Assembly (NCBI GenBank): GCA_025201375.1
Contig: JAIWZP010000001.1
Location: forward strand, 854,501 to 918,500
Reading direction: 5' to 3'
Source: Gongronella butleri
Taxonomy: Eukaryota > Mucoromycota > Mucoromycetes > Mucorales > Cunninghamellaceae
Length of the DNA: 64,000 bases
Under the pieces are notes generated by a model. The model was not told where the DNA came from and searched no databases. It worked only from the letters and a program-made list of their open reading frames with translations. A program made the position numbers and the translations under genes. Of this stretch, positions 4,331 through 61,676 are shown piece after piece (the stretch's first letter is position 1; each line of letters opens with the position of its first letter).

Positions 4331-5060
4331 GATGGATATGATACAACAGTATCCGACAAAGAAATATGAAAAAGAAAAGGACCGCACGCCAGAAAAAAAA
4401 GAGAAAAACACAAAAAAAAGAGGAAGAAAAAATGGACATTGATTTTGATCAGTCCCTTTTTTTGTCCTTCATGCAACATGCAAGTCAAACCAGCAGTGCC
4501 GACCAACCCCCTGGAAATCGCTAGAAAATCCCAATTTATTAAAATCAACACTGCTCGCTACAGTTTCACGTGTCCGCCAGGCCATGAAATTACTACAGTA
4601 TAGACATTTGTGTGTTTTAATCATTTTTTCGAAAACAAAGGAAAAGCCGGGGGTTGCTCTGGCCGTTGACGAGAAAAAAATCGATATTTTTCTAGAAATT
4701 CACAATTTCAACCCTGGTGCACTACTGTAAATTGTTATTCGATCATGCATGCTGAAAACTTGCAAATTTATAAAAGAGACGTGCACGAGGATCATTATAT
4801 TTTAGCAGCGCGACAAAGCCGATGAGCAACTTTTACTGTATCCACTCGGGACGCCAGATTTAATGTTTCAACTCCAATTATTACAGTATTTTCTCGAGAA
4901 GGAACGCACGAATAACTCACGGCAGGCTTGCAGTGAAAAAAGATCTAGAATTTGATTCTCTGTCAAATGAGACCACTTTCACTGACGTGCGACCAACACT
5001 GGTCGAGAAATTAAAGTTTCTAAATAATATGACTTTGTTAGCTTTTTATTCTCGATCCGT
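4331..5060. other. Gene-free spacer with dispersed TACAGTA/TACTGTA heptamers
   Basis: AT-rich, no credible open frame. Heptamers occur near 4593, 4723, 4834 and 4883. These are the first members of the footprint-like motif described in the findings. Confidence 0.5.
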
Positions 5061-5061
5061 C

Positions 5062-5104
5062 AAGTCAACCCCCGATTTTTATTGCAAATTTGCTTATATT
5101 ATTA
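5062..5104 (+). repeat. Short fragment of R1 repeat (left-arm sequence)
   Basis: The segment CCCCCGATTTTTATTGCAAA matches the R1 left arm near 33360 and 57735. It carries the uninterrupted TTTTTATTGC form, so it is useful as the unmodified allele when comparing footprints. It ends where the LINE relic begins. Confidence 0.55.
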
Positions 5105-5865
5105 GAAAGAGGGGATCTCCTCTTTGGCACCGACGTCACCCTTTTTTCCATCAACGGTTTCCAGGCAGAGCCATTCCGCCAGGCACAGGGCCTCCGGCCC
5201 CTCCGCCGCCAGGGCGATCCCCTGCCACTGCTCTTGTTCAATCTCATGATGATTGAACCATTGATCCGCAGCATCATCAAGGAACCGGCCATCAGAGGGA
5301 TAGCACCTTTTGGGGGTAGCCATCATGCAAGCACGAGTGCCAATGCACGCCCCACGTATCGCGTCAAGAAGATCATGGCCTACGCGGATGATCTTGCCAT
5401 TATGCTCCAGAAACCAGCGGACTGGGACGTGATACAGTAATGGAGATCTACGACAAATACGCCCTCGCTTCCAGCGCGCGCCTCAACGTCCACACGAGAT
5501 CATTACTACTACGGTATATCCTTGCTTGAGTGGCAACCCGCACCTCCTGGCATGGTGACAGGTGAGACAACACGCCACAACAGGTGCTCAATGGCACGAC
5601 AAATTGACCACAAACGCAGCAAAATATCTCGGATTCCCTCTATACTGTCGACGCCCGCGCAATTGAAGAATACTGTACCTTTTTGGCTGATCTGACACGC
5701 AAGCACGGTGGAAATACAATAATGCCAGAGACGCAAACGACGGAATCTGTCCATCCGAGGTTCCAGTTTGGTCACCAATTCATTGATTCTATCCAAGATT
5801 TGGCATGTTGTCCGTGTCACGACACCCGTCCCACTCACTTGCTGCACGGTGGTGTTTGCGCATAA
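5105..5865 (+). pseudogene. Degenerate LINE (non-LTR) reverse transcriptase, palm to thumb region
   Basis: Frame 5090-5440 shows LINE reverse-transcriptase hallmarks in order: NGFQAEPFRQ..GLR, RQGDPL..LLFNLM, then the catalytic AYADD box followed by LAIML. After the stop at 5438 the reading continues in another frame as MEIYDKYALASSARLNV. It then shows KYLGFPLY near 5620 and NSLILSKIWHVVRV near 5775, all typical of the LINE region after the RT. At least four frame changes and several stops are needed to read it, so it is a dead copy. The 5' part (endonuclease, ORF1) is missing. Only removal of CAGTA at 5435 is needed to repair the first break. Confidence 0.8.
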
Positions 5866-7060
5866 ATTCATTTTCTATTTCTTTTTGTGTCATTTTTTTC
5901 TGCTTGTTACACGAAGTGAGGTCGACAGCCATGGGCTCGGGTGCATTTTTGGCGTCGCCAATGGCACTGTTGTTAGTGACACCATTTAGTTGGTCGATCT
6001 GCACTTGTTGGGCTATACGTGCGGTATATTCCGCGCGAGTGCGTCTTTGTTCCAAAAATTCACGATAGCGGTGACCAGGCGCCCAGGGACGTTGGCAGTG
6101 GCGGCAAGGAGGGTTGCCAGAGCCTGAGGGACCAGTGACATATGATAGGGACGTTCTTGTTGACGATTATTTCCAGGCGCTGGGTCACGATCTGAACGCG
6201 AGTGGAAGCGATTTTCGCGAGGAGATGCGGCGTGATTTCGGCCAAAGTTGTTGTTGTTGTTACGGACATCGTCACGCATAGACAAGCGTGTGTTGATGGG
6301 GCGATGGTCACGGTTGCGATTGCCACGATGGCGAGTTTCATAGTGAGCGGATCGCGCAGAGCGAGAAGAATGCGTCGCGTGGTTGCTGTTGTTGCCATGG
6401 TTGCTCTGATGGGTGCGTTGATGCAAGTCCCATTTCTCACTGAAGAGTCTGGGCGCGCGGTCCATGATGAAGGCCACAGTCAGGGCTTCTTCACGGCGGT
6501 TGCTGGGCGGAATGGCGTGGACAGTGCGCACCTGGGCAGTGAGTCGATCGAAACAAAAGTCGAGCTTTTCCAAAAGCATGGCGCCAAAAGCAATCGAATC
6601 TTGCACAACACCTGCGGAACGCAAAGTGGTGGTAGCGGGCAGATCAATGAAGTCCAGCAGATTATCAGTTTTTTTGCAACGCATAGAGTGGAGCTCCGCC
6701 AGGTAGTGTGCGGCGGCCAAATGGTCACCCTTGAACTTTTCCATAATGATGGTACGCGCTTTTTTGGCCCAATTGCAATGGCATTTCATCAAATCGGCCA
6801 TGAATGAACCATTCTGTCTTGAGCGTGCGTGGAGTGTTGGACAGACATAACAACCATGCATTGCTTCCATTTTACTGTATGTCGAGCTCGATGTTGTGCT
6901 GATATGCGACGAGGAGTTCGAACAAGTTGATAAACTTGTCCACCGCCGTGAACAGAGGTTTGTTGATCAAGGCATCTTCGCCACCCACGAATTGGAGGCT
7001 TGGTAAGTTCTTTGGGAGACGGATGGCTGGCTACAGTAAACAAGGTTCGAGCACGTGCAC
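5789..7060 (-). pseudogene. Inverted gag-like (LINE ORF1-type) relic
   Basis: On the minus strand, 6870-6013 is open for 285 codons, including KCHCNWAKKARTIIMEKFKG and a His/Asn/Arg-rich tail with poly-Asn. A second frame (6055-5789, EQRRTRAEYTARIAQQVQ) overlaps and probably continues it after a frameshift. A third frame upstream (about 7010-6875) encodes a helical segment ending in a stop at a TACAGTA motif. The arrangement resembles a retroelement gag or ORF1 coat protein. No CCHC knuckle is visible. It interrupts the plus-strand LINE in opposite orientation. Retroelement identity is inferred from context and composition. Confidence 0.45.
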
Positions 7061-7199
7061 GCTCATCAATAATAATACTGTACTACACAAGGTCACGCCA
7101 CGACTCATTCGACACACGCAGCACCCACGCTTCCAAGTTCCAACCCGACACAATGATTGATCCAGCCACCACCACCACCATAATACCTCATGCGCCTCG

Positions 7200-7640
7200 A
7201 CTGCGACCGACGTGACTACTGGAGACGGATCTGGAAACATTGAGACATCGCACACAAAACGTGTACAATCTGCAGGTGGCGCCTACTCGCTCACCGACGA
7301 CGAGTGCCTACCCACTGCAGCCCACATGTTCAAGCGCCAACACCGAGATTTCCCGAGAATCCCGACGCCCATGTGCCAATTTTGCCACAGCACCACCATC
7401 GAAAATGACATTCATCTCATCTTTGCATGCCCACCAAAACACGCGATCTGGACCCAGCAACAAGTGGACCACAAGGTACAGCAGCAGCTCCTCGATTCCG
7501 ACATCAAGTTTTGGCTCCGTCGACCCTCTCGGTGCCCGGCCAATTTCCTCCCCCTCTTCAATGCCTCCATCCTTGCTGCCTGGAAACACCACTTTGAACA
7601 AGTTGGCCCACCCATCGACGCCTCACGCAAAAGAAGCTGA
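7200..7640 (+). pseudogene. LINE C-terminal zinc-binding region (zf-RVT-like)
   Basis: The frame 7212-7640 contains YSLTDDECLPTAAHMFKR and then MCQFCHSTTIENDIHLIFACP, the Cys-x2-Cys...His-x4-Cys arrangement found near the C-terminus of many LINE ORF2 proteins. It ends IDASRKRS followed by a stop at 7638. It lies on the same strand as the RT relic at 5105-5865 and is probably the 3' end of the same or a related element. The connecting 300-400 residues expected in a full LINE are missing and replaced by the inverted gag-like piece. Confidence 0.65.
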
Positions 7641-8500
7641 TCACCTCAGCCCCCCAGTCATCACTTGATTGTTATTTTTTAATTCTCTTTGCTCCTCCTC
7701 CTCCATCCCCCATCCCAGCAGCAGCCTGTAAAATTGGTGGGTGGAGAAATGTGACAAGAAAACAAAAGACAAGAAATACAATCGCAAACAGATACGGTTT
7801 ATTGAAATGTAAAACGATTCTCTATTTATACAAAACGTGAAAGGACAATGGTATCAGATCGTGAGATGCGGAGGAGAAACAACGCTGTAAGAGAGAGCTG
7901 TCGAGACTCTCCGTGTCTGAAGCAAAACATATTATTTATCGCTTTGCATCAATTGTGAAAAGACCTCGGATCGGTATCAAGGGCGTTTGTTTCAATCCAT
8001 TGAATGCCATCGACATGCATATACATGGGGCTGATCAGGGCATGGCTATTGAGCCGGTGAAACCAGCGCCTGCGGCGCGCGACTCTTTTTTTTTTTATAT
8101 TCTATTTTTGCCATGCTTGGCCCGAGCTCGTGGCTGGTCATGGCCAAGCCACGACTCTGCATGTCTGGATCATTTGTATTAAGGGCATTGATGGATGCAT
8201 CACGTAATGAGCGCGTACAATTCAATGTGAGAGCATAAAGGATGATAAAGGTGCGCATTCCTTATTTCGGGCATCATGATTACAATGCGATGCGGATGAC
8301 GGCCCGACAGCGGCCTGAGCGAGAGCGGGGAATCAAACCCCAGATTAGGAAGGAGCGTCGGAGCGACGTGTGCGGCAATTGCCTATATTTACAGCACTGG
8401 TAAAAATACCAAGTACGCGCCATCATTGCGCGTCTAAACAACTTGATCGCTTATGCTCTGAGGACGGCAAATACAACACAGCCCACCAGTGAACAAAAAT
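7641..8500. other. Gene-free region after LINE relic
   Basis: No credible coding frame. Short frames at 7913-8182 are AT-rich noise. A segment near 8290-8395 resembles a tRNA T-arm on the minus strand (GGGG-TTTGATT-CCCC), but no acceptor or anticodon stem could be paired. Confidence 0.4.
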
Positions 8501-8539
8501 AAATTGCTATTTTGGGAAGGAGATAAACATGAATCGGCG

Positions 8540-9165
8540 AAAAAAAATCTTGACCAAAGTAGGCACTTTTTTTTCAGTCGATCGGCGTTCATGCGTCACT
8601 CTTTGGGCACTTTTCTCGGTTTGAGGCCGACCTGCCATCTCGTGTGCCAATAGCAAATTGCCAGAGTTACCTGTTTGGGATGCATTGATCACTCGGAGTT
8701 CAAAATTTCCCAAATTAGACATTTCTGAGATTGAAATCTGTGACCCCTGAGTGACCCCTGAATTTTTCAAAAGTGGTCGTAGTGCTTTGGGGATTTAAGC
8801 TTTTTTGTTGGAAATTTTGCGCTGATTTCGATGCGGCTATTTTTGAGCGGGGTCGACCATGCAGATAGCGAGATGAATGCAAAAGAGGGAAAATAGAAGG
8901 TTTTAGAATTTGCAGGCTCAATAAAAATCGGACGGGCCAGCAGTCGCGAGCACTGGGCTGTACCGTACTGTAGTTCGTGCCGTGACGCAATTTTCATCGG
9001 CGGGCAGCGCAGGTAGGCTGTAAAAAAATTTCTGGAGGCACAAGAAGCCGTCAAAGTCTCGAAAACAGGCCTTTTCGTTTTCCAAAGGCCAGCGTGAGTG
9101 CTTTTTTGTGCAGTGTAGCGCGACACGCCGACACCGCAGGTATTGAAATGATAGCACGCATCAGA
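8540..9165 (+). repeat. R1 interspersed repeat, copy 1 (right arm)
   Basis: About 625 bases shared with copies at 33600-34260, 61320-61676 and 63628-63925. Anchors include GTTACCTGTTTGGGATGCAT, GACCCCTGAGTGACCCCTGA, GAGCGGGGTCGACCAT and TTTCTGGAGGCACA. All copies lie in the same orientation. No long frame is conserved among copies, so it is either a non-autonomous element or an LTR/UTR fragment. A TACTGTA near 8965 is absent at the matching place of copy 2. Confidence 0.8.
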
Positions 9166-9660
9166 TTCTGTCTATATATAGTACTACAGTATACCGGTCG
9201 ATCAATAAAATGCAAGGACAAAACACATTACTGTACGTATTTGCAGTGTAAAACTGTAAATCTGTAAAATGTTCTTATTTCGCATGATTAGCAATTTTCA
9301 TGGTCTTAAACGTCCGTACCGGCCTGGCAAAAGGTGCCACATGGACGCCAAGATTGAAAGATGTCAACTACTCTTATGATACAGTATTCAATGGTGTTTG
9401 CAATGGAAGTGTTTTTTGTCTATGATACGATATTTTAGTGGGGAAAGCGGCGCAAATCTGCAAAATGCAAAATGTTGAAATCATGTATCATATCATACTG
9501 TAGAGTTGGCATGGTGTCTGCAAGTCATCAAGCATCAAACATTGTGGATAAAAACACACATTTATTGTCATTCAAGGAAGATGGGGGGTAACAGGTGAGA
9601 GAAAAAAAATCAATAATACAAAAAAATCGAAAAAAAGGCGAAAAAAAAAGAAAAATGAGC
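9166..9660. other. Spacer rich in TA-NNN-TA motifs
   Basis: Contains TACAGTA/TACTGTA near 9184, 9230, 9380 and 9497 and TATGATA/TATCATA units beside them. Forms the 3' flank of the Vps10 gene; no open frame of note. Confidence 0.5.
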
Positions 9661-12600
9661 CTAGAGCTCGCTGGCGTCGCTGTCCGAGGCATCATAGTCG
9701 TCTAGTAGGACATCCGTCTCGTCCTGATCCAAGGGGCTGTAGCGCGGGCCGCCGCGCTGCATGAATGAGGGCAGGCGGATGTTTTGCAAAAAGCTCATGT
9801 CGCCAAGATTGCGTGGTAACCTGACCCTCGACAGCAAGCCGACGATGGCAACAGGCACAATGACCATGGCAGACACGACCTTGGTGAGGATCGGATGAGA
9901 CAGCAGCGAGTCAGCCGACGCAGGCGCGCCATCGGGCAAACGGATGGAACTAGAAAGGAAAAGAAAAGAAAAGAGATGAGCATGTGCTGCGTCGCGTCGC
10001 GTCGCATTTATGGTCTTTTTTTTTTTTTTTTTTTTTTTTACCCGAATCGGCCGTGTGATCTAAAGATATGGCGGTAGCGGAAGCAGGCAAAGACGGCTGC
10101 GGCGCCAATGACCGGACCAAAGAGGAACCAAGCCCAGTTTGAGCTGCCTGGGCGGCCGGGACAGCGGATCATGTCGCCCTGCTTGTCGAGCTCGTCGCCG
10201 CCCTGGCAGGTGGATGCTGCGATCTTGCGGTAGCCGCTCGGATAATACACAAAGTCCACGGAGCCATCGCACTCGGGCACAATTGGCTCGTAGCCGGATA
10301 CAAGCACGCAGTCGCCCTTGTCATTGCGCACAAAGTTGAAGTCACTAGAAAAGAAAAGGAAGCCGTGAGCTCCCCGTGATATTTTTTTGTCTTTTTTTTT
10401 CCCAATTTTTTGTCTTTTTCTTTTTGATCTGCGTACCATTCAAAGTCCAGGGCCGAGCAAGAGCAATTGCGGACGATGTCCTTTGGTTGGACGAGCTTTT
10501 CACCAATGTAGCAATCACGTTCTTGGATGCGGCGGTAATAAAGCGTCTCACGGCCAAACATACACTTGTCACCACGGACATCGACGGGGCTCCAGAGCTC
10601 AAAGTCGTCGTCGTCCTCGTGTTGGATGTCCAGCTTGCACTGGGTGGGGTGCAGCTGTGAAAAGTCAATGTGATAGGCGACGAATTTGCCCGAAGAGCGC
10701 TCGGAGCCAAGGATCAGATACTTTTGACTGGTGCCGTCGGGTTGGGTGATGATGTCCTCGACCTTGATGCGGTCCTTTTTGTTGCTGAATTCGTATGTTT
10801 CCCAGGTGAGGCCCTGGTCGGACGTGTATTTGAGCTCGTGGGTCTCGTCTTCGTCGTCAACGAGAATCAAAAGGCCGCCCTGATCGGCAAATTCCCAAAT
10901 GTGAGCGCCCTTGTACACCTCTGTCCATGTTTTGCCGGCATCGCGCGTCATGAAGACGTCGCCGACGCGGTAATCGGACAGCCATCCACCAACATTGCCG
11001 ACACCGACCATGAGACCGACGGCACTGGACGTGCTGAAGAGGTCGCGTGGATTGCGGCGCTCTGAGTAGCTGTGCAAGTGCAAGAAGCAATCGTCTTTGT
11101 TGATGCAGTGGTAGGGCTCCTTGCGGCTGTCGAGGTTGGGGGCAGCAATGGTGTTCCAGCTGCGGCCGGCATCGGCGGTCAGCTTGGTCACCAGCTTTTT
11201 GGGGTCGCCCATGTTGGCCTGACTGGGATTGGACAATTGATTGGCAAGTGCAATGCCATCAATGCCTTGCATCTTTTCAAAGTCGACGATGCCCATGTCG
11301 TTGCGATTGGCGTCGGGCAGCGACATGACAAAATACGTGCCATTGGAATTGGACGTGAAGATGTTGCCGTACTCGGAGCCCTTGCGCGTGTTGGTCGACA
11401 CGTGGATCCACATGCTGTACTGGGACTCCATGATGGTGAATGCCTCGGGCGCCACGGCAAAGCTCTCTGGGAAATGCGCAGGCGCATACGTTTTGCCATC
11501 CAGGCTGACGTGCAATTGCAAATTGGCGCCGCCATGTTGAGCGACGGCAACGACCATGAACTTGCCAAAGACAGCGACACCGACCATGTCCTCAAACAGG
11601 TATTGCTTGGATTCAAAGTACGAGTCGGACGAGACAAATTGGAGTGGATTGGACAAAAAGGTGCGCTGGTTGCCGCTCTTGTCGTGGTACTCTTCGCAAA
11701 AGATGGCGTCGTGCTCGGCATGCTCAATCTGGCCGCTGCGGCCCCAGATGCAGTTGCGCACATATGTGCCGATGCTGCGCCACGTCTGTCCGGAATTGTG
11801 CGTGTAAAAGGCCTCGGAGTGGCAGTTGTTGGTGATGAAGCCATCGCAATTGTCCTCGCCAATGAAGATGGCATATTCGTCCTCGTCGCGGTGGAAGCTA
11901 AAGATGTTGCCGACAATGGAGCTGAGCGGTGGCAATGGCGTGGTGATCTCGTTGAAATTCGAGCCGCGGTCCGTGGTGACAAAGTGGGAGCGGCCCTTTG
12001 TGATGAAATACGCAATCTTGTCGTGGTGTGGATTCTGGTACATGGCAATCACCTGGTGGTTCTCAAACACCTGCATCCAATGGTCACCATCGTCGTCGCT
12101 GCGCCAAATCTTGTTGTCGGCCGTGCGCAAAAACACGCGATTGGTGTCTGTAAAGTAAATGTAGTCGACCACACGATCGCCAAACACCATTTTGGAGCTT
12201 TGCACGCGGCCCTCCTCGCCACAGTCCCATTCTTGCTGCTTTTCGAGGTCAATGCCGCCGCGACACGTGCTCTTGGCGTTCTTTTTGTATCCAGAGCGGC
12301 CCGTGAACTTTTTGCCAGGACGGCAGTCCGTCGGCCGGTCAGGGTGTCGGTTGATGAACTCGCACTCGCCCTTTTCATTGCGCCAAAAGCCGAAATCGCT
12401 ACGTTTTTATGAGAAAAATGAGAAATTGGGATCAGATTTCCTTTCTTTTTTTTTTTTTTTCCTCCCTCTCGTTGCTTTCCCAAAGGGATGGCGCAGCAAT
12501 TTCTGATCGCCTCCAATTCGCCTCCGATTGCCCTCCATTTTGTTTTTTTTTTTTTTTACCATTCAAAGTCAATGTCGCGGCATTCGCAGTTGTCGACGAC

Positions 12601-15600
12601 GGTCTCTGGGTCCTTGAAGCGATTGCCGACCTTACAGATGCGGTCTTTTTTGCGGCGCCAGTAGGCGGTCTTTTTGCCCAGTAGGCAGGCATCGTCGCCA
12701 TCATCGTCCTTTGGAATCCATTTTTCAAAGTCGCTCTTGTCTTCGTTGCGCTCGTCGAGGTTGCACTGCTTGATGTCCTTTGTCTCTGTGAAATCGACGG
12801 TGATGATCTCGGGCTTGCGCGCTTTGCGATTGTGGCCAATGATGACGAAGCGCAGCGTGGTGGACTGCGGGTCTGTAGTAAGCGTGCGCACACGCATCGG
12901 CTCGTCGGCGAACTGGTACTTGTGGAAGTGGTCGCCCTGGTCCCACGAGTACAGCAGCTCGTTGGTGGGGCCCTCGTCGTTGATCAGAACGAGCAGTGAC
13001 CCTTGGTCGCCGAATTCGTACAAGTGCTCGCCCTGCTGGATGCGCGTCCACGTGTGACCCGCGTCGCGTGTCAAGAACGTGTCGCTCTGCGCATAGTCGA
13101 GAAGCGCAGGGCCCACGTTGCCGACGCCCATGGCAAGGCCAGGCACGCCGCCTGCAGAAAAGATGGCGCCGGGCCCGTGGATGTCGGTGCGGCTATGCAA
13201 ATTGAGCGTGCAGTCCTTTGCGCGGCAATCCATGTTGCGTGGCGGCTCCAGAGGCTGCCAATGGCCACCGTCGTCCCAGCTGATCATCGTGCGCACACGC
13301 TTGGCCACCTCGCGCCCACCACCAACAAGATCTTCGGGATTCATCACCTGATTCGCCAAAATGATCCCATCAACGCCTTGCAGCTTCTCGAAATCGACAA
13401 AGCCCATGGCATTGCCATTCGTGTTATCCAGCGCAACGTGGTAAAACGTGCCATTCTCATTCGACTTGTACAGCGTGCCATGCGCCTTGCCGGACGTGAT
13501 GGACTTGAAAATGTTGAGCAACACCGAGTGCGTTGTCGACTGCAGCACCGTAAACGTCTAATTGCATTGGTAAGAAAAAAAAAAAGAAAAAAGAGTGAGT
13601 TGACGTTCGAAAATAACAATGGCACAGGGAATTAAAAAAAGTTCCTTTTCTTTTCTTTTTTCTCCATATTCTTCCAACTCACTTCGCGATCAATGTACTG
13701 CCCAGGAGGGAAATGGGCCTCTGCAAAGTGCTCGCCATCAATGCTCACGTGAACGTTGAGTTCACCGCGCGTGGTGGCTGCCACAGCCATGAAATCGTCA
13801 ATGACAAAGAATTCGACGAGATTGTCAAAGAGGATTTCCTTTGCCTGGCCCCAATCGACGGTGCGCGCGAGCTGGAGCTGCGACGACTGCGGCGACGCGT
13901 GCACTGAGCAGTACACGGTCTCTTTGCGGATATCAAACTTGGAATCACGGCCGAAAATACACTTTTCGACATGCATGTGGAACGCGGTCCATGAGCCACC
14001 ATGGTCATGCGAGATGTACGCGTCGGTGCGGTGTGTGGCCACGTCGTCGGCCGCGAGCAGCAGCCATTCGGGCTCGGTGGGGTGGAAATCGATCACCTGT
14101 GGGCCGAGAGTGCGTGCAGGCGTGCCTGGGGTGTCCACCTTTTTCCAGTTCTCGCCTTGGTCCGTGGAAACGTACATATTGGTATCTGTGAATGCGTACG
14201 CGCGCTCATTGTTGAATTCGTGCATGACCACGTTCAAAATGCGGCCTTGGTCGGCAAGTACTTGCTTCCACGACAGACCGTGTTCGGGCGAATACCACAA
14301 TTGGCCATTCTCGAGACGCATCAGCACACGTGGTGCATGCGCAAAGTACATGAATTGCGCGATTTCGTCGTCGAATGCCGTGTGGAAGCTGCGGATGCCG
14401 TCCTCGGCAGGGTCGGCGGCGGTCGTCACGCCATGGTTCTTGTTCTTGTCGTCTGCTTCATGGTTGTTGCTATCTTGCTGAATGTGCACGTCATTGTCGC
14501 TGCATGGACGCTGCACGGGATCATCCAGGGCCTTTGCGTCCTTTTGGAGCTCGCAGGTATTGCCGGGGATCAGACGATAGCCACTGGAGGCCAAGTACGT
14601 GTCGCTTTCATGCTTGCATTCATCACTGGACACAATGTCGTGGTCAATGCGTGTGCACTTGCCCTGGGCGTCGCGTGCAAAGTTGTAATCGCATTCATAA
14701 TCGGCTTGTGTGCACGGGCAATTCTTCATTTCCACTTCGGGTTCCTGGAAATCGCGGCCAACATAGCATGCGCGGTCGATCTTGCGGCGATAAAACATTT
14801 GCTCATGGCCCATGAGACAGTCGGGGCCCTCGGTCAGGTCGCGCGCGTAAAAGCGTTCGAAATCGCTCTTTTCGTCGTTTTCTTGGTCAAATACGCATTG
14901 TTTGTCGTGGATGGCAGTGAGATCCAGATGGATGGCCTCAATGCTCTTTGCAGCATGTTCCAGAGACGCCACGAGCAAAAAGTGGCCGGAAGTCGACTGC
15001 GGGTCGGTGGTCAGGATGTGTGCACGCACCTTTTTGCCAAGATCGTGTCTTTGCCAATGGTTTCCGCGGTCGCTGCTCCACCACACATGATCCGTCTCCT
15101 TTCCATCCTCGACCAGCACCAGGATCGCGCCCATGTCGCCGAATTCGTACTTGTGCGCACCCTCCATGGCCAACTGCCACGTCAGGCCACCATCCGATGA
15201 CAAGAACGTGTCGCACGCGTCGTAGGACGCCAAACGATCACTGTAGCTGCCAACACCCATAATCACGCCTACGGCTGTCGCCGACGAGAACACCTGGCCC
15301 ACATTGTGGGGCGACGTGACGGAATGGAGGTGCAATTGGCATTTTTCGCCATCTTTGGCGTTGCAAGGCATGTCGCGACCCTCTTTGTCCTTGACATGGG
15401 AAATCGGTGCCCATGATGCGCCATCGTCAAAGCTCATGCGCGTCTGAAGCACCTTTTCACGCCCGCGTTGCACAACGTCGTCGGGATTCGCCACCACATT
15501 GGCCAGCATCACACCTTCGACGCCCTGGATACGTTCAAAATCGATAATGCCCATGGCATTGCGGTTCGTGTTCTCCAGACTCTTGACAAAGAACGTGCCG

Positions 15601-16831
15601 TTGGAATTCGATCGGTAGAGCGATCCGTACGCGGCGTGGCTCGCCAGCATATCCACCAAAAGCGCCGTGCTCGTCGATTCGACAATGGTATACGCTTCTT
15701 CTTGCGCGGCCGCGCCCGCAGGGAACACCGCTTGGCTCCAATTCTCGCCATCCAGTGAAACGTACAAATCCATGTCGGTTTCGGCCGGCGACGGCTTGAC
15801 GGCGGCAATCATATACCGATGAATCGCGCTTACCGCCACAACGCCATTCACGCTCTTGCCCGTGCCAAAGTCCATCAATTGCTCCTTTTCAAAAAAGTTT
15901 TCCGATTGCACCAGGCGGAATTCCTTGGGATCCAGCCAGCTGAACAGGTCCTTGTGCTCCGCAGGCACAGGCTCCACGCACATCACCTCGTCCGTCGGCG
16001 TCGTCGTGAATTGCGCGCTCGATTGGCTCCAAATACAATGCAACACGTGGCTGCGCAGCGAATGCAGCTCGTCAAAATTGTTGGTCGTATAATGCGCCTA
16101 CAAGAAGCAAAAGGAGAGTGAGCCACAAAACCAAAAAAAAAAAAGGGGGGGAAAAAGGAAAAAAAAAAAAAAGATAAAAAAAAGAGAGCTCACCTCGACG
16201 TGGCAATCAGGAGCACCAAGCGCCTTGGCATCGCATTGAAAGCCAAAAAAGATGACATGGCCAGGGCGCTGCGCGTGGAAGCTCAACAGCTGGTTACCAC
16301 TCGCTGGTTCGTTTGGCGTGTCAAAGGAATGCCATGTCACGCCCTGGTCGTCTGTTTTCCAATGCTTTTTACTGTTGCTGAGGACATACGCCTAGGAACA
16401 TTTTTTTTAATTCAAAAAAAAAAAAAAAGTCAGTGCGCATTTCGGTGCAATTGGGTCCTTTTTTTTTTTTACCTTGTCCTTATCGTAAGGATGCTCGTAC
16501 AATGAATATGCCTGTCCGTCGTCAATGTCCGTCACCTTGACCCAGTCCTTGCCATAGTTCTCCGAACGATAGAGCGCGTGCGAGTTGGCGTCTAGCCATA
16601 GCAAGTTCTAAAAAAAAAGCGACAAAACTATGAGCCAATGCCACACAATTCGCGAATTGAGCGCGTTTTCCACAAACTTACGTCCGAGTCTTTAAAGTAG
16701 TGCAGCTTTTCAGGAAGCCTGTCAAAGGGCGTGCTGCCGGTAGCGATACGCTGAGCCGTGACGGCGCCAAGGGCAGATGCCAAGACGAGCGCAACGCACG
16801 CAAAGCGGCGAAACGAAGCCCTTGTGCGCAT
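9661..16831 (-). CDS. VPS10: Vps10/sortilin-type sorting receptor with three Vps10 modules
   Basis: Eight exons keep phase: 16831-16682, 16607-16473, 16391-16194, 16097-13683, 13557-12560, 12398-10437, 10344-10042, 9949-9661; about 2149 aa. Residues 1-27 are a signal peptide ending VTAQ. Three Vps10 beta-propeller plus 10CC modules follow, starting near residues 40, 730 and 1365. Each shows Asp-box-like S/T-x-D-x-G-x-T/S-W turns (SSDGGLTW, TRDAGHTW, TRDAGKTW) and ends with a Cys-rich C-x-C...DFECDF block. A membrane segment WAWFLFGPVIGAAAVFACF lies near residue 2030. The tail carries YSPL (YxxPhi) and ETDVLL (acidic dileucine) sorting motifs. Yeast Vps10 sorts vacuolar hydrolases between Golgi and endosome and has two modules (about 1580 aa), so three is unusual. 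Confidence 0.92.
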
Positions 16832-18777: not shown

Positions 18778-18885
18778 ATGATGTTTTTTTTTTCTTGTTC
18801 CCAAATAAATCCCCAATCACCCCCCTTTTTTTGTTGTGTTCTTCTTGACAATGTGTCAATGGCTACATTTTAATAATGTTACAAA

Positions 18886-34275: not shown

Positions 34276-35262
34276 TTTATTACAGCATACTGTACCTATG
34301 ATATGATATCACACCGTGAGACGAGAAGCTGAAAGCGGGCCGGATCAAGAGTGTACAGTATGTACGATAAATCCAAAACGGATGAATACAGTATCGTGTT
34401 TTTCTCGAGCGTTTTGCTGATATTACTACTGATTAGTGATTATAGTATCATATGACATAACATTACAGTATACTGTAATTTTTTTGAAACGGATATTGGA
34501 CGACGCGATTCATGCTTGTACAGTAGCAGCATCCTCACCAAATTGAGAAGAGGTACAGTACTTGATATGAATGGCACGAAAATGACTAAAAATGCAAAAC
34601 ATCGTGCTTTCTGTAATTTTTTTTCTATGATACTGTATGATAGACCGTGGACGAGCCAATGTTATGCTACCGTATAAAATTGCGACTGATGACGCGCTCT
34701 ATGCAGTGCCGTGTACGCTCTATCATAGAAAGTCGCTTAGAAAGAATGATGCGCAATCTGCAAAAAGCTCAAAAAGCTTTTGCATGCCTCGCTTTAAGTG
34801 ATTGAGGGTCTTAAGTCGTCCCCTGAAAACATCAAACTTGAAGTAGAGGATGTGTTTTTTGTTCTTGGTGTGCGTTGGAGAGGATGGTCCAGCAGGGATG
34901 GATGCAAACTGAGAGACCGCGAAAATACATGGCTTTTAATTATTGGTCGTCTTTTTCTTCGGGTACGAAATTGATATGTGAAGGGATTTCAAAGACTATT
35001 ATACACTCCATGCAGTGCCATATTGTAAGTAATTGACAAGGTTGTCAAAGTATTAAAGGGATGAAAAATGCAAAAACGTCGAGTTGTCGCATTTCCAAGT
35101 ACCTTTTATGTCTGTGCTTTGCAGCTCGTGGCGGTCATCATTGGACGCGATCGCTGCAGGGCTGGCTGGCTGTCAAAAAAAAAAAAAAGCGGGGTAAAAA
35201 AGTCGGCTCGTTCCGCGGGTGGGGGGAACTTGTTCTCCCCTTTTTCTTTTTTATCGTCAACG
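34276..35262. other. Spacer upstream of PFK-2 gene
   Basis: The first 400 bases contain about eight further TA-NNN-TA motifs, including a TATGATATGATA run at about 34295. From 34740 to 35262 the motifs stop and the sequence becomes leader-like, ending in a T-rich stretch before the ATG at 35263. No other gene supported. Confidence 0.5.
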
Positions 35263-37748
<2,486 letters not shown>

Positions 37749-43464: not shown

Positions 43465-44146
43465 TGGAAAGATTTAACAAGGAAAAGAAAGGATAAACGG
43501 GCCAAGGCGACTTTTTCTGAAAAAAATGGGAGAAAAAATGCAAGATCTGGTGCAACCTCGGAGCCCTGTGCCACTCTCGTCCCTTGACCCAAAGACATGG
43601 CCCGTCCTTTTTTTTTTTTTTTTTTTAGCAGGGTTTCCACGGCAATTGCACTGACCTGCGGCCGTGGGCGTTGCCATCTTGGATCATGCAACGAACGTCA
43701 TTGGTAAATTTTACATGCATCGGAGCTCGGCTTTCCAATTGCCGTCTTTTTTTTCTTTTTTTGTTACGAGCGTCCTTCCAGGACTCGCTTTCATTCGCAG
43801 TCGATGCCGACATGAGCATGGTGCGCGTGGCGTCACTTGTTCATGCCATTTGCCGCGCCATTGCGCCACATTGCCCTGTCATCCCTTGTTTTGCTGTCCA
43901 AACAGCGAAACACATGATCCACGGAGTCCCTCTTGGCGTCTCCATGCCTCTCTTCTCCGTGCCCCATCCGCCATTGGCGCTTGTGGGTGGCTCCTCGCTC
44001 TGAATGGCCACGGAAGGCAAATTTTGCCACGCCACGCCAAGAATTGGCTCTTTCACCTCACACTTTGATTATGCAGCTGATGCTGGAATTTATCATGGAT
44101 TGTACTGTACAAAAATAAGAGATGAAAATACACCAGACGGGTCGTT
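43465..44146. other. Spacer between tandem Tvp18 genes
   Basis: No supported gene. Parts (TCATGCAACG..GTCATT near 43685; TTCATGCCATTTGCC near 43840) have counterparts at 45860 and 41160, consistent with duplication of the whole gene block. One TACTGTA lies at about 44103, the only one seen close to a gene 3' end in this region. Confidence 0.45.
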
Positions 44147-50955: not shown

Positions 50956-52808
50956 TGTCAATCTATTACCATTTTCCTTTTACCACTGCAATAATAGCGC
51001 GTCAAAAATATAATAAATTGGTTTGAACAAGCATTAAGAAACATCCATATTCTTTATAACAAGGTGCATCCAACAATGCCAAGTCTTTTCAAAGTGAAAA
51101 AAATGATCAAAATAATTTCTATCCCCATAATTTAAACGTGCACGAGACTAATTCCTCGTTTGACCTAGCATAAGCAATCTGAAATTGAGTAGCTTTTCTT
51201 GGCTCACATTATCCAGCAACAAAAACGGGAGACCAATCACGTGATGATCAAGAAAATAGCAAAAAGGACATTTTGACGGACTTTTAGTCGATTGTCAGTA
51301 AATATACAACTGATCATGCCCTCTGCTCATTGATACAACACTTCCCAAATGTCTCGTTCAAATTAACCCACACACGAGGCTCTGCGGCTCCTGGATGGTG
51401 CAAAAGCGCCATTTCAAAAATGTCGAATTTTCCAAGGGGTGCAGTCGAGGATTTGAAAATGATACAGTAAAATTAAGTCATGGGATCGACGCGCCATTCA
51501 ACCACATGGTAAACTCGTCTCCATGACCGATAAAACTGCATTAAAAATCAAGTGCTTATTGACTGACTTTTGAGTAAAATGCAAATTGCGCTCTATTTTC
51601 AGCCCAAGGCTGGCTCGACCGAAAATGGCTGCAGCATCTTGAAACACATGCCATTAAAAAGAGCTTGCTCTGCCGCATACGGCGATGCTAGTGATCGACG
51701 GCAACAGCGGCGTTTTGGTATGAATAAGCACGATACTATTCATTTTCGACGCTCGAGCAGCGGGTACAGCCATCATATCCGCTCCTTGCCCTTGAGTAAT
51801 TTATGTCCCTGGAGCATCTTTTGCTAGTGGACGCGTTAGCGCGGCTTCTTGACGCGTTTGGTCATCGCAATTCGTGTGGAAATTTTATATTAAATTACCA
51901 ATTGCTCGGCACCGAGTCGATGGATCGCCATGTATTTTAGAGTTTTCCGTCATTTCGCCATTCCAGCTCTCTTGTATGCAAATTTGGCGTAATTCTGGAG
52001 AGATGATTTTTCCATTTTGGCTTTGAGCGCTCATCGCGATCAAATTTTGATTTGCGAAAAACGCCTTTAAATTGGTACATGGCAGCTACAAGCTGAACCT
52101 TACTCGGTGTTTTCGGCTAGTTCATTCATTCTTGGACGCGTTTCGGGTCCGTGCGATGTGACCTTGGCAATTTTCATCATGATGCGCACAAAAAATGATC
52201 ATCTGATCCGTTCCGCCGGATTGACTTGGTTTGAATAAAGGAAAAAAAGTCGAGCAAAAGTCACTGCATACAGCCAGGGACTCGGCCACTTCTCGGCCAC
52301 AGCAGTAGACTGGAGAAAAGCGTAGCTCGCTCTTGTTTTTTTTTTCTCTCTCTCTCTCTGTTTTCTCAATCGCACTGGCTGCTGTCCTATTTGCTCACCT
52401 ATTGGGAACTTATTTTAAATTCTGTTTTTACGCGCTTGATGACGAGATATTCGGGTTCACGTGAGTATTACTATTGTTATTTTTGGATGCAGATATTGGA
52501 GAAAATTTGGTGAAAGGGCCGCGCGCAAGGTTGGTGGGTATATGACCTTTGCATGCATGCGCCTCTGAACATTGGCGCACCCTCGACTCAAGCTGCTCAA
52601 ATATTCAAAATGCACGAATGCGGGGAAGGCGGCAAAAAAAGGGGGGCAAAGACCGGGCGTCGGCCCTCTTTTTCTCTTTTACGCGACAGCAGGCCATGTG
52701 CATGGGCTCCAACAAAATCTGTCGCGACCCTTCATTCAACCTGGAGTAGCAGCAAGCCATTTTACCGGGGTTAGACCATCGTCTGATTGAAAAATGGGTG
52801 ATTTTATT
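50956..52808. other. 1.85-kb spacer, no supported gene
   Basis: AT-rich with scattered short frames (longest 51570-51827) lacking motifs. One TACAGTA at about 51469 and a CT microsatellite near 52346-52360. The 3' ends of the convergent ABC transporter and PIG-S genes flank it. Confidence 0.5.
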
Positions 52809-55081: not shown

Positions 55082-55269
55082 GCCAAAAGTGGGGAGAAGA
55101 AGCCGAGAAGAAGCCGGGGAAACGCATTCGCTTGCGGTCTTTTTTCTACTTTTTTTTTTCGGGCATCCAGCGGCCTTTCAAATGAAATAGACGATAAAAT
55201 GCAGGTTGCGCCACCTTGTGCCTCGCATTTTCTTTTCATTTCAGTCCCTTTTTCTCGCCTTCATTCGCC
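55082..55269. promoter_or_regulatory. Short bidirectional promoter, PIG-S / LOG
   Basis: Only 188 bases separate the two divergent start codons at 55081 and 55270. Both 5' leaders and core promoters must lie here. Contains AAAAGTGGGGAGAAG and a T11 run near 55149; no TATA box is obvious. Confidence 0.55.
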
Positions 55270-56149: not shown

Positions 56150-57289
56150 ATTACTGTAAATCGAATGACTACATTTAGCGTCAAATAAAAATTCAATTAC
56201 TGTACACAGCATTTTCAGCGAGAGCAAAGCGCGATACAGTATCATGCTGTAGCGCGCCCTGGCAAAGCACTTGAGCGGAGGGTACGTCGTCTGTCAAACA
56301 CACACTCATATGATACATATTTTATCGAGAGCAATGGAGGTCGGTCATAATTGGTTGCCTGTGCTTAGTATGATAGATCAACATTTATTTTATAGGACAT
56401 CTATGCCTTTAAAGTCTTTTTAATTGCACTGAACATTGTCTCCCGGGAAGACACTGTGGCCTTATACCCGTGTCTTTGCTTCGGTCCCGATTACGTAATC
56501 AATTGGTTTGCAAATGATTAACTAGACGCGTTTTAAACAATTAGACAAATTTTGAACAAAAAGACTTGCCCGATCGCCAATGATCAGCAGTATCAAAAAA
56601 AAAGGCATTTTTACTCCGCACTGATTTGGAAAACGCAGGGCACACCGGGTCACCGGCTGGGCAAATACAGTACGTAATTCAGCATCGGATTTTTGTTATC
56701 ATAGATGAAAGTGGTTTCATCAGTGTCCAAGCATGAATGTATCATCGTGTGTCAATCTTGACAGGGATCATTAGAGGAGCATGCAAGGCAGCAGATCACA
56801 GCCAAGCAAGATTCATTCTCGGTCGCACACAAGGCCTGAAATCTTGCTTTTCCTACTACATACCGGTACAGTAGCACACGCTCGACGCTCCTCCATCTTA
56901 GTGCGTAAAGCACAGTACTGTATCAGCAGCATGTTCTGCGGCTATCATACGCGTGAGGCGTGACGCTCATGCATTACTGTACTGTACAGTATTAGCACAC
57001 ACATTGCCCCTTTGTGTACTGTACGTAGCATTAGGACTACGGTACGTAGCATGACGCGCTGGATGCAAAGGGTGCCCACCAATGCAACAACGCATTGATG
57101 CCCGTGATCGGACCCTTTTACAGTTTTACTGTAAGCCATTTCGTCGCGTTTTTTTTTTTCAACAGAGCGTTAGAAAGATGGAAAATTGGAAACCCAGAAG
57201 TCAATAATTGAGTCGTTGTGCAGAAGATGAATTCAAAATTTATTGACATTTTTTCACAAATTCAGCAGTAGTATCATACAGTAGCTCGA
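56150..57289. other. Gene-free, TA-NNN-TA-rich region
   Basis: At least ten TACAGTA/TACTGTA motifs, including a three-unit array near 56975-56995. No supported gene. Confidence 0.55.
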
Positions 57290-58025
57290 CTCTTCTTCTC
57301 AAAATACTGTATCATACTGTACGTATTTCGTGGATCGCCGCCAAGAAACCGGCACCATTCAAATTTCAAAACATCAAAATTACCGTATTTCCTCATGGAT
57401 CCGTGACCTTGTTTACTGTACTGTACTGTACAGTACGTACGCTTGTGAAAGTCGTTCTCTCGTTCAACATTTCAAAAATTTCAACCTCGGTGTTCTCAGC
57501 AACGGATTGAACAACACGCACGCGGCGCTTTTGACGTCTTCTGTCGAAAGCACCTGAGTTGCATTTACAGTACTGTACTGTAATAATTACTCAGTATTTC
57601 TATCGAATGAGATCATCATCATCAGTTTGATCGATGGATGGCTATCATACAGTACAGTATCATAAAACTCACAGAGAAAATCCACTTTTTCATCAAAATC
57701 TTTGATCGCGATTTGCTCGACAACGGTCTAGTCAACTCCCGATTTTTACAGTACTGTACAGTACGTATTGCAGTTTTGATAACAAACAGGAGGGAAATCA
57801 TCTACTGTAGTGGGATGACTTGCAACGCGCTACAGTAGTACAGTAGTACAGTATGATAGCTTGGGTTTCAACTTTTTGCATGTTGTTCGTCGGTCATTTC
57901 TTCACCAGACTGCAGACTGCGATCTGCGACCCACATGCGACATGATGCCCACTGGTCATCACTCATCAGTGCACAAAAATGTGCAAAATAAAAAATAAAA
58001 AAATACAGTACTGTACTGTACTGTA
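57290..58025 (+). repeat. R1 repeat, left-arm copy heavily invaded by TA-NNN-TA units
   Basis: Matches 32980-33590 (CGTGGATCGC, TTGCTCGACAACGG, GGGATGACTTGCAACGCGCT, TCGGTCATTTCT). Compared with that copy and with 5062-5104, it has extra TACAGTA/TACTGTA blocks at 57414, 57565, 57747, 57832 and an array at 58004-58025 with one CAG and three CTG units joined by TA. Confidence 0.7.
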
Positions 58026-58250
58026 TCTGACACCTGAGTCACAAGTTGTGTTACACGAGTGACAACGAGTGACAAAATCACAGCCAAATTTTAGCCCAGT
58101 GACAGCGGCCATTTGTCGGGGTCACAAGAAAATGGCACAATACATAATGTATTGTACCATGTCTCGCCTCATTTTTGTCAAGTACACAATGTACGTGACA
58201 TTTTCTGAGTGACACGGCCCTGAGGTTCCGGACCATGATATTGTAGTGAC
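58026..58250. other. GTGAC/GTCAC-rich segment
   Basis: The pentamer GTGAC or its complement occurs about ten times in 225 bases (for example GAGTGACAACGAGTGACAAA). The same pentamer ends each unit of the following minisatellite (GTGGTGACC) and recurs inside R1 (GAGTGACCCC) and near 61190-61235. Confidence 0.55.
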
Positions 58251-58257
58251 CTTTTTT

Positions 58258-58400
58258 TTTTTTGCGCGTTGATGGATGGGTGGGCTCAATGTGGTGATCC
58301 CCCCTTTTTTTTTTTTTTTGCGCGTGGATGGATGGGCTCAGTGTGGTGACCTTTTTTTTTTTTTTTTTTTGCGCGTGGATGGATGGGCTCAATGTGGTGA

Positions 58401-58436
<36 letters not shown>

Positions 58437-58710
58437 GCGTGGATGGATGGGCTCAATGTGGTGACCTTTTTTTTTTTTTGCGCGTGGATGGATGGGCTTA
58501 ATGTGGTGACCTTTTTTTTTTTTTTTTTTGCGCGTGGATGGATGGGCTCAGTGTGGTGTTCTTTTTTTTTTTTTTTTTTTTTTTTTTGCGCGTGAATGGA
58601 TGGGCTCAATGTGGTGACTTTTTTTTTTTTTTTTTTGCGCGTGGATGGATGGGTTCAGTGTGGTGACCTTTTTTTTTTGCACGTGGATGGATGGGTTCAA
58701 TGCAGCATAA
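58258..58710 (+). repeat. Minisatellite with variable poly-T tails, nine units
   Basis: Nine tandem units. Each has a conserved core of about 35 bases (GCGCGTGGATGGATGGGCTC followed by AATGTGGTGACC or AGTGTGGTGACC) and then a T run varying from about 9 to 34. The first and last units are the most diverged. On the minus strand it reads as repeated IHPRAKKKK peptides, which I regard as incidental. Confidence 0.92.
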
Positions 58711-58836
58711 TGTACGCTAGCATGATGGTACACATGGAAAAAAAGTGCAAATACCCCTTTCTTTTCTGTTTTCGGCGCGCCTCTGGACGCGTCGTTTTAT
58801 AAAAAGAATATTTAATATCATTTTTTTTCGTAAAAA

Positions 58837-61068
58837 CTACTCATTGGAAGAATTTTTGAGTGCGTACGTCATGAACTTGCTCAATGTCCAATTTTTTTGT
58901 TTTCTCTCGTTGTCCAATCTTGCAGCAATGTCATATACCGACACACCATCAGATGCTGCCAGGCGCTCAATTTGGCTGATCACTCGCTGGCGGCGAGAAT
59001 AGAATTGTCGCTCTGTATACAATAAAATAAAAAAAATATCATAAATCAACAATATTCTTGTCACAGAATTCAGCACGTTTTACCTTTATGATCACTCCTC
59101 CAAGAGGAACCAAACTCGGCATTCAAACTAACCACGGATGGCTTGCTTGGCGGAAGTCCATCAAACCATTCCTTCACCAGATCGGCCAAGCTTTGCACAT
59201 TTCTATCAAGGCGATAGGTAGATGTTGTGGCTGCATGGTCTTGGCCATTGTTGTTGCTTGGAGCACCTGCATTGGGAACCATTGTTGCGCTGTGAGGATT
59301 CACAAAGTACGCGCAGGCTAATTTCAGGTGTTCCAGGTGATTTTTGACAACACCGACATCTTGCTGAACACTGGCGATCTGAGCAGAATCAGCACTCGTT
59401 GTCGCTTGCTGCTGAGATATCATGCTCCTAATAATCGCTTGGTTGCTGTCGATTTTGTTGCTCAAGTTCTGCAATTGCTCGCTGACCACGGGCAAGGCTC
59501 GGCGAACAAGAAGGTCTTGAGGTTCTTCCGCTGTGTTGATGGCAGAAAGCAATTGTTGCTCAAATGTGATGAATTCAGGGTCGCTGAAAACATCGTGCCA
59601 AAACAAGGGATGGTCAGGGTGGTCAACGCGGTGCAGCACGGAATCTTGCAGAAACACGCGGCGCATTGTCGCCAGAAGGTTGAGAAACGCTTCCGCGCAA
59701 ATGGAATATTCTGTTCCATCGAGTTTGCGCGTGACCTTGTTGAGCCATTCTTCAACTTGCGGAAAGATTTTCTTTTGCAGCGACTCGGGGGGGTCCAAAT
59801 TTGCTCGGGGCAGCCAGTAAAATCCCTTTTCCGAGGAAAAACCATTGATGATGCGAATGGATTTGCGAGGGAGAGCAAGCAGGTAGCACTTTTCCATGCT
59901 TCCAGTTTCCCAACGACCGTGGCGGCGCAGGTCTTCTTCCGTCGCACCATCGATTTCCGCCAATTGGGCACCACTTCCACGGCCAGAATGTGTTTTCTTG
60001 GAAATGCGAATGTTCAAGGCCTCAAACACGCGATTCACAGCCCTAAGCTGCGTTCGATAGGTCATTGCATTTTCCGGGTGGCCATTCTTGAATGCCTTGA
60101 CATCGAACCAAGTCGCGTTCTTCTCAAAATTTGGAAATTCTTCGCCTGAGATGTGCCATCGATAAAAAAAGTACTGTGCAAGGGCACCAAACGCACACAC
60201 ACGGTGGTCCTTGTGTCGGATGGCGCCACCGAACTCAACCTTGCCGAACTTGTTAGTTTTTCCATGGTCGAGACGAACCACCAACGCAGGACATTCGCTG
60301 AATCCTTCATCAGGGAAGACCACCTTGCAAAGATCCGCCAAATCAATGTCGCGCGAGCTTTCGCTTCGCAACAGCATCATATGCTGGAGCAGAAACCAAG
60401 CACGATCCCTGAGAGAGATCTCTTTTTTTTGGCCAAACAAGAACATCGAGACTTGCACAAGCTGTTCAGCAGAGTAGCCGTCTTGGGCAGAATGCGCACC
60501 ACGATCCACATACTCTTCTCGCTTGCGTTTGTGCTCCGCAATGCGCTTGTTCTTCAACCAGGCTTGCAATGCCGTGCCTCGAATCTTCCCAGGTTCAGCG
60601 ATTCTGTCAATGACTTGCGTGGAATGCAAATCAATCAGCGCCTTCACCTCCATTGAATACGATTCGAAGGATAAATCGCAAGGCATGCCATCTTCGCGTT
60701 TTTTGTGTTGGTGGCCACGGCGAGACACGACATCCTCCAGATACACCAAGATCTTTTCCTCCGTGACTGCTGGACCATCAACATATTGTCTTTCGGCACA
60801 GAATTTCTATACAAAACATTCAATTAGGCCTCAAATACGCTCTTTTACTGCAATTGTCCTCGCTGCGCAGCTATTCATGGCTTACACTGAATTTCTCTTG
60901 TCTTGTTTTATAGCTAGCATGCGTGTTTGCTGGTCTCACTTCTTGGGTGAAAGTATTCATTGTCTGGCGCACAACTTCTTTGCCACGCTCCGTGTTTCTA
61001 TCATGAGCAGCAGATGTGCTGCTGCTAGCAATCACACGTGATGCAGATCGATTTCGTGTAGGGGGCAT
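58837..61068 (-). CDS. Crypton tyrosine recombinase with GCR1_C domain
   Basis: Three exons in phase: 61068-60886, 60806-59084, 59012-58837; 693 aa. The N-terminal part (VRPANTHASYKTRQEKF, AVTEEKILVYLEDVV) is the SAM-like core-binding domain. The catalytic set of tyrosine recombinases is complete: Arg about 208 (LLRSESSRD), His-x-x-Arg about 334-337 (THSGRGSG), Trp about 360 (HGRW) and Tyr about 369 (EKCYLL). Residues 600-693 (VKEWFDGLPPSKPSVVSLNAEF..WRSDHKERQFYSRRQRVI) match the GCR1_C DNA-binding domain found in fungal Cryptons. No frameshift or stop is visible, so the copy may be functional. Element ends were not located; Cryptons lack terminal inverted repeats. Confidence 0.88.
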
Positions 61069-61274
61069 AATAAAGAGGATTTTCTGCAAACAAAAAAAAG
61101 GCAAAGGGTGGAATTGATCCCCTTTTTACCCCCTTTTTTATATCATCGTTTTAGATCCCCGCAGCAACATGCAGCCAAAAAAGGTATTTGCCATCGGTGA
61201 CATTCAGTGACAGACAGGCCGGTGACACATTTGTCACTGAGCTTAAACTTTTGGCACATACCTTCACTGTACTG
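61069..61274. other. 5' flank of Crypton
   Basis: Short spacer with GTGAC motifs at 61195-61235 and A/T runs. May contain the left end of the Crypton, which cannot be defined from one copy. Confidence 0.4.
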
Positions 61275-61676
61275 AGTACTGTAAGAAAATAAAAATTTCA
61301 TACAATCCACGAACGTAATTTGGAAGTGTCAAACCTTAAATTTTTGCAAAAAAAAACCTTAACCAAAGTAGACACTTTTCTCAGTCGATCGTCGTTCATG
61401 CGTCTCTCTTTAGGCATTTTCTTAAGTTGGCGAGCAACCTGCCATTTTGTCAGCCAATAGCAAATTGTCGGAGTTACCTGTTTGGGATGCATTGATCATT
61501 CGGAGTTCGAAATTTCCCAAATTTGGCACTTTCTGTGATTGATGAAATGTGTGACCCCTGAATGACCCCTGAATTTTCAAAAGCGGTCGTGGCGCTTTGC
61601 GGGTTTAAGCTTTTTTGTTGCAAATTTTGCGCTGAATGCGATGCGGCGAAGTTTGAGCGGGGTCGACCATACAGAT
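61275..61676 (+). repeat. R1 repeat, split copy, left piece
   Basis: Matches 33535-33950 and 8540-8870 up to GAGCGGGGTCGACCATACAGAT. Ends abruptly at ACAGAT (61671-61676), the same hexamer at which the right piece restarts at 63628. Confidence 0.75.

Follow-up and report, generated by a model that had tools for sequence, protein, structure and literature searches.

Why is a stretch of a fungal genome strewn with copies of one heptamer? The window analyzed here, the whole stretch of 64,000 nucleotides from Gongronella butleri (contig JAIWZP010000001.1, positions 854,501 to 918,500 of the forward strand), is rich in the words TACAGTA and TACTGTA, that is, in CAG or CTG with a TA on either side. 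A sequence-only reading had estimated roughly 70 of them and had taken them for footprints left by excision of a Tc1/mariner transposon of the Sleeping Beauty (SB) type. The enrichment of the words, 5-bp insertions at TA and matching source elements with an intact transposase are all present in this genome, and it is very probable that the heptamers are excision footprints (scars) of SB-like Tc1/mariner transposons with CAGTGCCC ends. The type of footprint is known; what is new here is the scale, the joining of scars into chains and the presence of resident elements beside the scars.

Enrichment of the heptamers and related words

The window contains 82 exact heptamers, compared to a mean of 1.45 and a maximum of 4 in 100 dinucleotide-preserving shuffles; the abundance stated earlier was right and the count somewhat low. 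In the genome (33.0 Mb), 16,213 heptamers were counted. The backwards-read control gave 6,355 matches, a weaker contrast than that for the word TATCATA, and we gave the shuffles more weight than this control because its word, ATGACAT, contains no TA. TATCATA, which the sequence-only reading had overlooked, occurs 32 times in the window versus 2.2 expected and 9,529 times in the genome versus 1,031 for the backwards-read pattern. The two footprint words together reach about 25,700 occurrences in one genome, far above chance.

A survey of TA-NNN-TA words covered the window and five 10-kb control loci, picked by the analyst at round coordinates, and was evaluated with order-1 and order-2 models. 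The strongest excess was that of TA-CAG-TA (97 versus 1.8 in the order-1 model, 53-fold; 35-fold at order 2), followed by TA-TCA-TA (50 versus 3.1, 16-fold; 12-fold), TA-CTA-TA (5 cases versus 0.8, 6.3-fold; 5.4-fold), TA-CCG-TA (11 versus 1.8, 6-fold; 3.3-fold) and TA-AAA-TA (27 versus 7.6, 3.6-fold; 2.8-fold). The excess of the AAA word is probably due to A-runs. A 4-nt word, TACCGGTA, was also in excess in this sample (7 versus 0.21). The enrichment over composition-matched models that had been proposed as a check was evident in both analyses. The density of the heptamer is uneven: among the words shown, control locus L039 (loci carry L numbers) has 13, two controls have one each and two have none.

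Five-base-pair insertions at TA

Paralogous repeat copies within the same genome served as empty sites. When positions 57664-57832 of the window were aligned with their paralogues, scars here corresponded to a plain TA or another word there. For a dispersed repeat of about 1.2 kb, we aligned 22 copies, namely the 20 best-scoring ones and two from the window, the consensus of which contains one TACWGTA. Among 233 well-flanked insertions, 26 were 5 bp long; deletions of 5 bp numbered five. The form TA-NNN-TA was present in 14 of these 26 insertions (8 CAG, 3 CCG, 2 TCA, 1 AAT); among insertions of 3, 4 and 6 bp, it was present in 7 of 54, 2 of 17 and 0 of 8, respectively. Of 67 chains, 34 fitted the consensus best, with no tie, when precisely the footprint chain was removed, and 3 were tied, whereas at random TAs used as control removal of 5 bp was best in 1 of 244 cases. 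At the consensus TAs 247, 964 and 1167, differing words were inserted in differing copies. An exact 5-bp difference between sites with and without the motif, which the sequence-only reading had demanded of orthologous sites, was found between paralogous ones.

The cleanest case lies within another transposon. The L028 family comprises ten copies of a 1,630-bp Tc1 element with 0 to 11 mismatches from L028. The copy at L038 has 7 mismatches in 1,630 bp and, outside an A-run, a single 5-bp insertion, CAGTA, which reads ...CAAA-TA-CAG-TA-GGGC... and sits at an A-TA-G site. The TA word is unscarred in 19 of the 20 arms of the family, the other arm of L038 included. Judged by its sequence, the L038 scar is a CAG footprint that arose recently at a TA free of earlier scars.

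Source element and transposase

The genome contains 204 exact ends TACAGTGCCCnnnCAAAA, and the backwards control gave 0. Most of the ends listed are paired in inverted orientation, at a spacing of about 1.0 kb or 1.33 kb. Copies of the 1.33-kb form (L092, L093 and L094; 1,334 or 1,333 bp) show 0 mismatches and one 1-bp indel, and encode an intact open reading frame (ORF) of 341 aa. The protein contains HTH_Tnp_Tc3_2 (PF01498) and DDE_3 (PF13358) domains above the curated cut-off, has 34 residues from the second D to the E (DD34E; counted by hand), and a comparison of its sequence with the PDB gave one match at E ≤ 0.001, the SB transposase SB100X (2.9e-29). The elements whose CAGTGCCC ends were read are flanked by TA at each side, and empty-site comparisons were consistent with a duplication of TA, with some ambiguous cases; window positions 61191-61283 represent a counterpart site lacking the element at L094, and this comparison is ambiguous on the right side. 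The footprint corresponds to the duplicated TA plus the first three bases of the element, CAG. By its domains, the DD34E signature, the TA target and the footprint, this CAG element belongs to the Tc1 clade of the Tc1/mariner (IS630) superfamily. Elements of the predicted kind, flanked by TA, with CAGT at their ends and with a DD34E transposase, are present in the genome. The prediction that the source of the heptamers lies outside the window also held: no TACAGTGCCCnnnCAAAA end was found in the window, a result that comes from the TACAGTGCCCnnnCAAAA listing spanning the whole contig C1, as a separate end scan covered CCCTA/CCCCA-type ends only.

Non-autonomous CAG elements of about 1,005 bp are present at L037 (392-1397), L092 (199-1203) and L097 (152-1156), the one at L037 having inverted arms of 423 bp (99%) and forming an almost whole-length hairpin. 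L095 contains a related element with 73% DNA identity. Related ends, CCGTACCC or CCGTCCCC, were found at L008, L024, L025 and L027, with a TACWG flank at 7 of 8 ends; three of these four loci had been fetched for their DDE_3 match. Altogether, 30 of 74 transposase matches were fetched as loci. For the remaining DDE_3 families (L009-L023), a search for the ends of their elements had no result. The DDE_3 transposase family at L016-L021 is near-identical over more than 1 kb, with five of six loci cut by a contig end, and is possibly subtelomeric.

Proposed origin of the footprints

The SB footprint is given as TACAGTA/TACTGTA, which makes the site five bases longer than it was originally (PMC4378557), and SB is described as cut three nucleotides inside the element, with 3-nt 3'-overhangs joined by nonhomologous end joining (NHEJ) to give the footprint (PMC7827188). 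In the scheme that we propose, the CAG element would insert at TA with duplication of the TA, and its transposase would excise it with a 3-nt stagger, leaving the 3'-overhangs CAG and CAG. In the joining of these overhangs the outer bases would pair and leave a central A:A mismatch, whose resolution either way would yield TA-CAG-TA or TA-CTG-TA and lengthen the site by 5 bp. Reuse of the same or a new TA would create chains TA(CNG-TA)n, elements with other ends would leave the other words, and the 4-nt word CCGG might arise from CCG overhangs pairing by CG. We infer the stagger, from the footprint length only, together with overhang annealing, repair by NHEJ and present activity. Neighboring footprints, including those in loci fetched for their transposons, have the same orientation in 47 cases and opposite orientations in 26 + 22, and this randomness agrees with an A:A mismatch that is resolved either way. 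The first and third bases of CAG, TCA and CCG are complementary, so that overhang pairing is possible for all three. The L028-type Tc1 family, with CCGTGG ends, fits as the putative source of the CCG footprint.

Some observations weigh against the words being excision footprints. In the 22-copy alignment, a length other than that of the chain fitted best in 26 of the 67 chains, mostly a longer insertion, and 4 of the 67 matched the consensus without any removal, apparently at one shared position (~1195). The enriched words CTA (5 versus 0.8) and AAA (27 versus 7.6) break the rule of complementarity. For the TCA class (TATCATA/TATGATA, e.g., at window positions 32179 and 9486) no source was found, either in a scan for terminal inverted repeats of the fetched loci or in a search with PF03184, which gave 3 pogo-type matches, all with stops. 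Finally, in one review (PMC2874221) the SB footprint reads TAG(T/A)CTA, which is the PMC4378557 word reversed.

The sequence-only reading had seen in the heptamers a large burst of transposition. The transposition is supported, a single burst is not: the scarred repeats are of differing divergence, and there are at least two other footprint words.

Distribution in the window

Three blocks contain 79 of the 82 heptamers and only 470 of the 1,981 TAs of the window, while 3 heptamers lie elsewhere, much as had been noted for gene-poor DNA. The blocks, the main chains and the isolated words are as follows.

4594-9502, unstranded: block 1, 14 CAG/CTG footprints with TCA and CCG footprint words interspersed
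32184-34637, unstranded: block 2, 31 CAG/CTG footprints, partly within the dispersed ~1.2-kb repeat (32989-34238)
32946-32982, plus strand: longest chain, TA-CTG-TA-CAG-TA-CTG-TA-CAG-TA-CAG-TA-CTG-TA-TCA-TA, seven footprints of mixed orientation and two classes
33203-33209, plus strand: single CAG footprint at TA 247 of the repeat consensus; the same TA carries CGG in L072 and TGA in L083
34053-34059, plus strand: CCG footprint, an exact 5-bp insertion relative to the repeat consensus
44103-44109, minus strand: isolated heptamer
51463-51469, plus strand: isolated heptamer
56152-58025, unstranded: block 3, 34 CAG/CTG footprints, many chained, in repeat-derived DNA
57414-57435, plus strand: chain of four CWG footprints
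57643-57664, plus strand: chain TA-TCA-TA-CAG-TA-CAG-TA-TCA-TA
57747-57767, plus strand: chain TA-CAG-TA-CTG-TA-CAG-TA-CG-TA, a single TA in the paralogues L055 and L056; best deletion 19 bp
57803-57809, plus strand: single footprint TA-CTG-TA, a TA in the paralogues L052, L054 and L056; TA-CCG-TA at the same TA in L057
58004-58025, plus strand: chain of four CWG footprints
61277-61283, minus strand: isolated heptamer; in L094, the left flank of an intact CAG element is a paralogue of the adjoining 61191-61283

Open frames from stop to stop of at least 250 aa stood in for exons (n = 21; 22.2 kb; 433 of the 1,981 TAs). They contain 1 of the 82 heptamers, 4 of the 32 TCA words and 0 of the 10 CCG words, and for these stand-ins the reported avoidance of coding exons is confirmed. 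The sole heptamer, at 6873, is located in a frame of 317 aa to which no Pfam family was assigned, and ten of the 21 frames (327 TAs), picked by the analyst as likely coding, contain none of the 82.

Scar chains and elements beside scars

In addition to the 16,213 single words, the genome contains 1,613 pairs of adjacent words, 695 runs of three and 301 runs of four; the backwards controls of the pairs and runs gave 12, 2 and 1, respectively. From the word counts, 14,600 CWG chains were computed, 13,682 with a single unit, 918 with at least two and 394 with at least three, in which chains within repeated DNA may count more than once. A second scar follows the first in 6.3% and a third follows the second in 43% of the cases, and between runs of four and runs of three the ratio is likewise 0.43.

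The ends of the CAG elements are themselves bordered by scars. TACNG directly precedes 178 of the 204 ends (87%), compared to a background of 184 of 3,962 TA sides in the window (4.6%) and 32 of 2,412 such sides across the five control loci. Of the 58 flank rows read, one of which, the right flank of the second L092 element, is wrong, all have a G directly before the TA and 43 show exactly TACWG. The sequence GTAC alone is insufficient to explain the adjacency, since 137 of the 187 GTAC sites in the window have no scar on either side. Pairs were tallied by hand among the first 100 places listed of the 204 ends and of the 178 scarred ends; in the latter list, 42 of 55 elements have a scar on either side, while of the other 13 one end is listed, and of the element at L096 neither.

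In our reading of the adjacency and the chains, residents either choose their own scars as targets or become trapped there. That the scars of the CAG transposon are its own habitat, with CNG-TA-CNG as preferred landing or trapping site and with scars and elements begetting each other, has in our view an even chance of being correct. Such autocatalysis would result in slow nucleation (918/14,600), fast growth (394/918) and residency (178/204). Two of the three readings that remain differ in the step at which scars are favored: the transposase may prefer CNG-TA-CNG (targeting), or elements may land at many TAs, with the bare ones left and the scar chains kept (trapping). L038, 7 mismatches from its sister, is scarred at a bare A-TA-G site, which suggests that bare sites have been visited recently; as they are hardly occupied, trapping in scar chains is favored over pure targeting. 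The L038 scar and the dominance of single scars together also favor trapping, unless another CAG family made the scars. If residency in scars is true, the scars might be a self-made safe harbor or a sink, and an attraction to or retention by scars would constitute a simple feedback at the sequence level that could limit damage to genes.

Residency could also arise without any self-targeting, if flanking scars build up while an element hops into adjacent TAs. Cut-and-paste transposons are reported to hop locally (PMC7827188), and two elements were caught abutting another end. However, in the L028-type Tc1 family of the same genome only 1 of 19 ends is scarred, and the high proportion of listed CAG elements with scars on both sides also argues against this explanation, which we regard as unlikely.

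Alternatively, the CAG element might truly start 5 bp further outward (TA/CNG-TA-CAGTGCCC), with TACNG as part of the element instead of a scar. This would account both for the 178 of 204 ends with TACNG and for the dominance of single scars, and the site at L031, as well as that at L037 if a loss of two bases is assumed, can be read with a duplication of the outer TA relative to paralogues. Yet the middle base varies (T, A, G, C), and mismatch-free copies differ, with CGG beside L093 and CTG beside L094. The flanks of the two-ended elements in the hand tally (n = 42) are direct in 23 cases, inverted in 13 and unequal in 6, abutting elements at L092 share one bare TA, the flank at L125 abuts another element end in the same way, and the outer TA is missing on one side of L037 and L094. 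Longer ends therefore appear quite improbable.

Two further explanations concern the heptamers themselves. Selection for a functional motif in intergenic DNA, e.g., a protein-binding site, would agree with the avoidance of long open frames; it is very unlikely, as the heptamer is a 5-bp insertion private to single repeat copies, CAG, CCG and TCA interchange at the same TA, and resident transposon ends supply the CAG, and the private insertions led us to reject it. Slippage of a microsatellite-like 5-bp unit (GTACA/GTACT) could yield heptamers and chains without transposition, and the chains do have a 5-bp period, with positions 32935-32977 called by Tandem Repeats Finder, but it was rejected as extremely unlikely because most CWG chains are single units, neighbors are randomly oriented where slippage would copy one orientation, and the L038 insertion arose in a CAG-free flank, next to 19 unscarred arms. 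Ciliate internal eliminated sequences are bounded by TA, have Tc1-like ends and are removed precisely in a programmed manner, with one TA left in a somatic nucleus; an origin of this kind was rejected, since 5-bp footprints persist here, in a host that is fungus-like.

Comparison with known systems

The impala element of Fusarium oxysporum reportedly leaves a CAG-type footprint, and to our knowledge neither genome-wide scarring nor scar chains are known for it. Like the CAG element it belongs to the fungal Tc1/mariner elements, and it is described as active (PMC2874221).

SB shares with the CAG element the words TACAGTA/TACTGTA, the gain of 5 bp, the TA target (PMC4378557, PMC7827188) and a related transposase. 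In contrast to SB, an engineered system with an estimated 8 to 153 footprints per tumor, there are thousands of words here in a natural genome, chained and with resident ends alongside. SB has inverted repeats of about 220 bp with two transposase-binding direct repeats per end (PMC7827188), whereas the ungapped inverted repeat of the 1,334-bp copies is only about 34 bp long and falls short of the SB length. As judged from sequence, the CAG element probably works like SB; identity with SB is not claimed.

In a beta-amylase intron of Triticeae, Stowaway/mariner elements similarly left several footprints, with current elements located inside footprints (PMC1925063). That case concerns one intron of one gene, compared to 178 of 204 ends genome-wide here. 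SB, Bari and ZB prefer a target palindrome centered on TA, ATATATAT (PMC7913693), which resembles the CNG-TA-CNG sites of the residents in its symmetry and differs in its sequence. At the level of titles and openings of abstracts, no report of genome-wide scar chains or scar-resident elements was found.

Excision footprints are usually counted singly in assays; with so many preserved in one assembly, it could be possible to derive the flux of cut-and-paste transposition and to see how it depends on the flanking sequence. In this genome, 5-bp indels at TA should not be taken for ordinary mutation.

Other features of the window

Block 3 includes a 243-bp repeat (56336-56578) that recurs with 98-100% identity at 13 other places among the matches scored. 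On contigs C45, C59 and C100 it forms pairs 3.53 kb apart, as the long terminal repeats (LTRs) of a short LTR element would, and by its sequence the window copy looks like a solo LTR. Positions 58004-58100 recur, whole or mostly, at 14 other places among the matches scored, and 58252-58694 is a tandem array of T-runs with a GC-rich spacer. An ORF with NDC10_II and GCR1_C domains, which we take to be Crypton-like, is located at 59070-60806 on the minus strand. Adjacent long ORFs on the minus strand at 10169-16097 resemble more than one sortilin/VPS10 gene; when VPS10 domains were tested in this region, they were present only for 13632-16097. The host is probably a mucoralean or related fungus, as the named proteins closest to the product of a VPS10 gene of the window come from Rhizopus stolonifer (53%) and Phycomyces blakesleeanus (50%).

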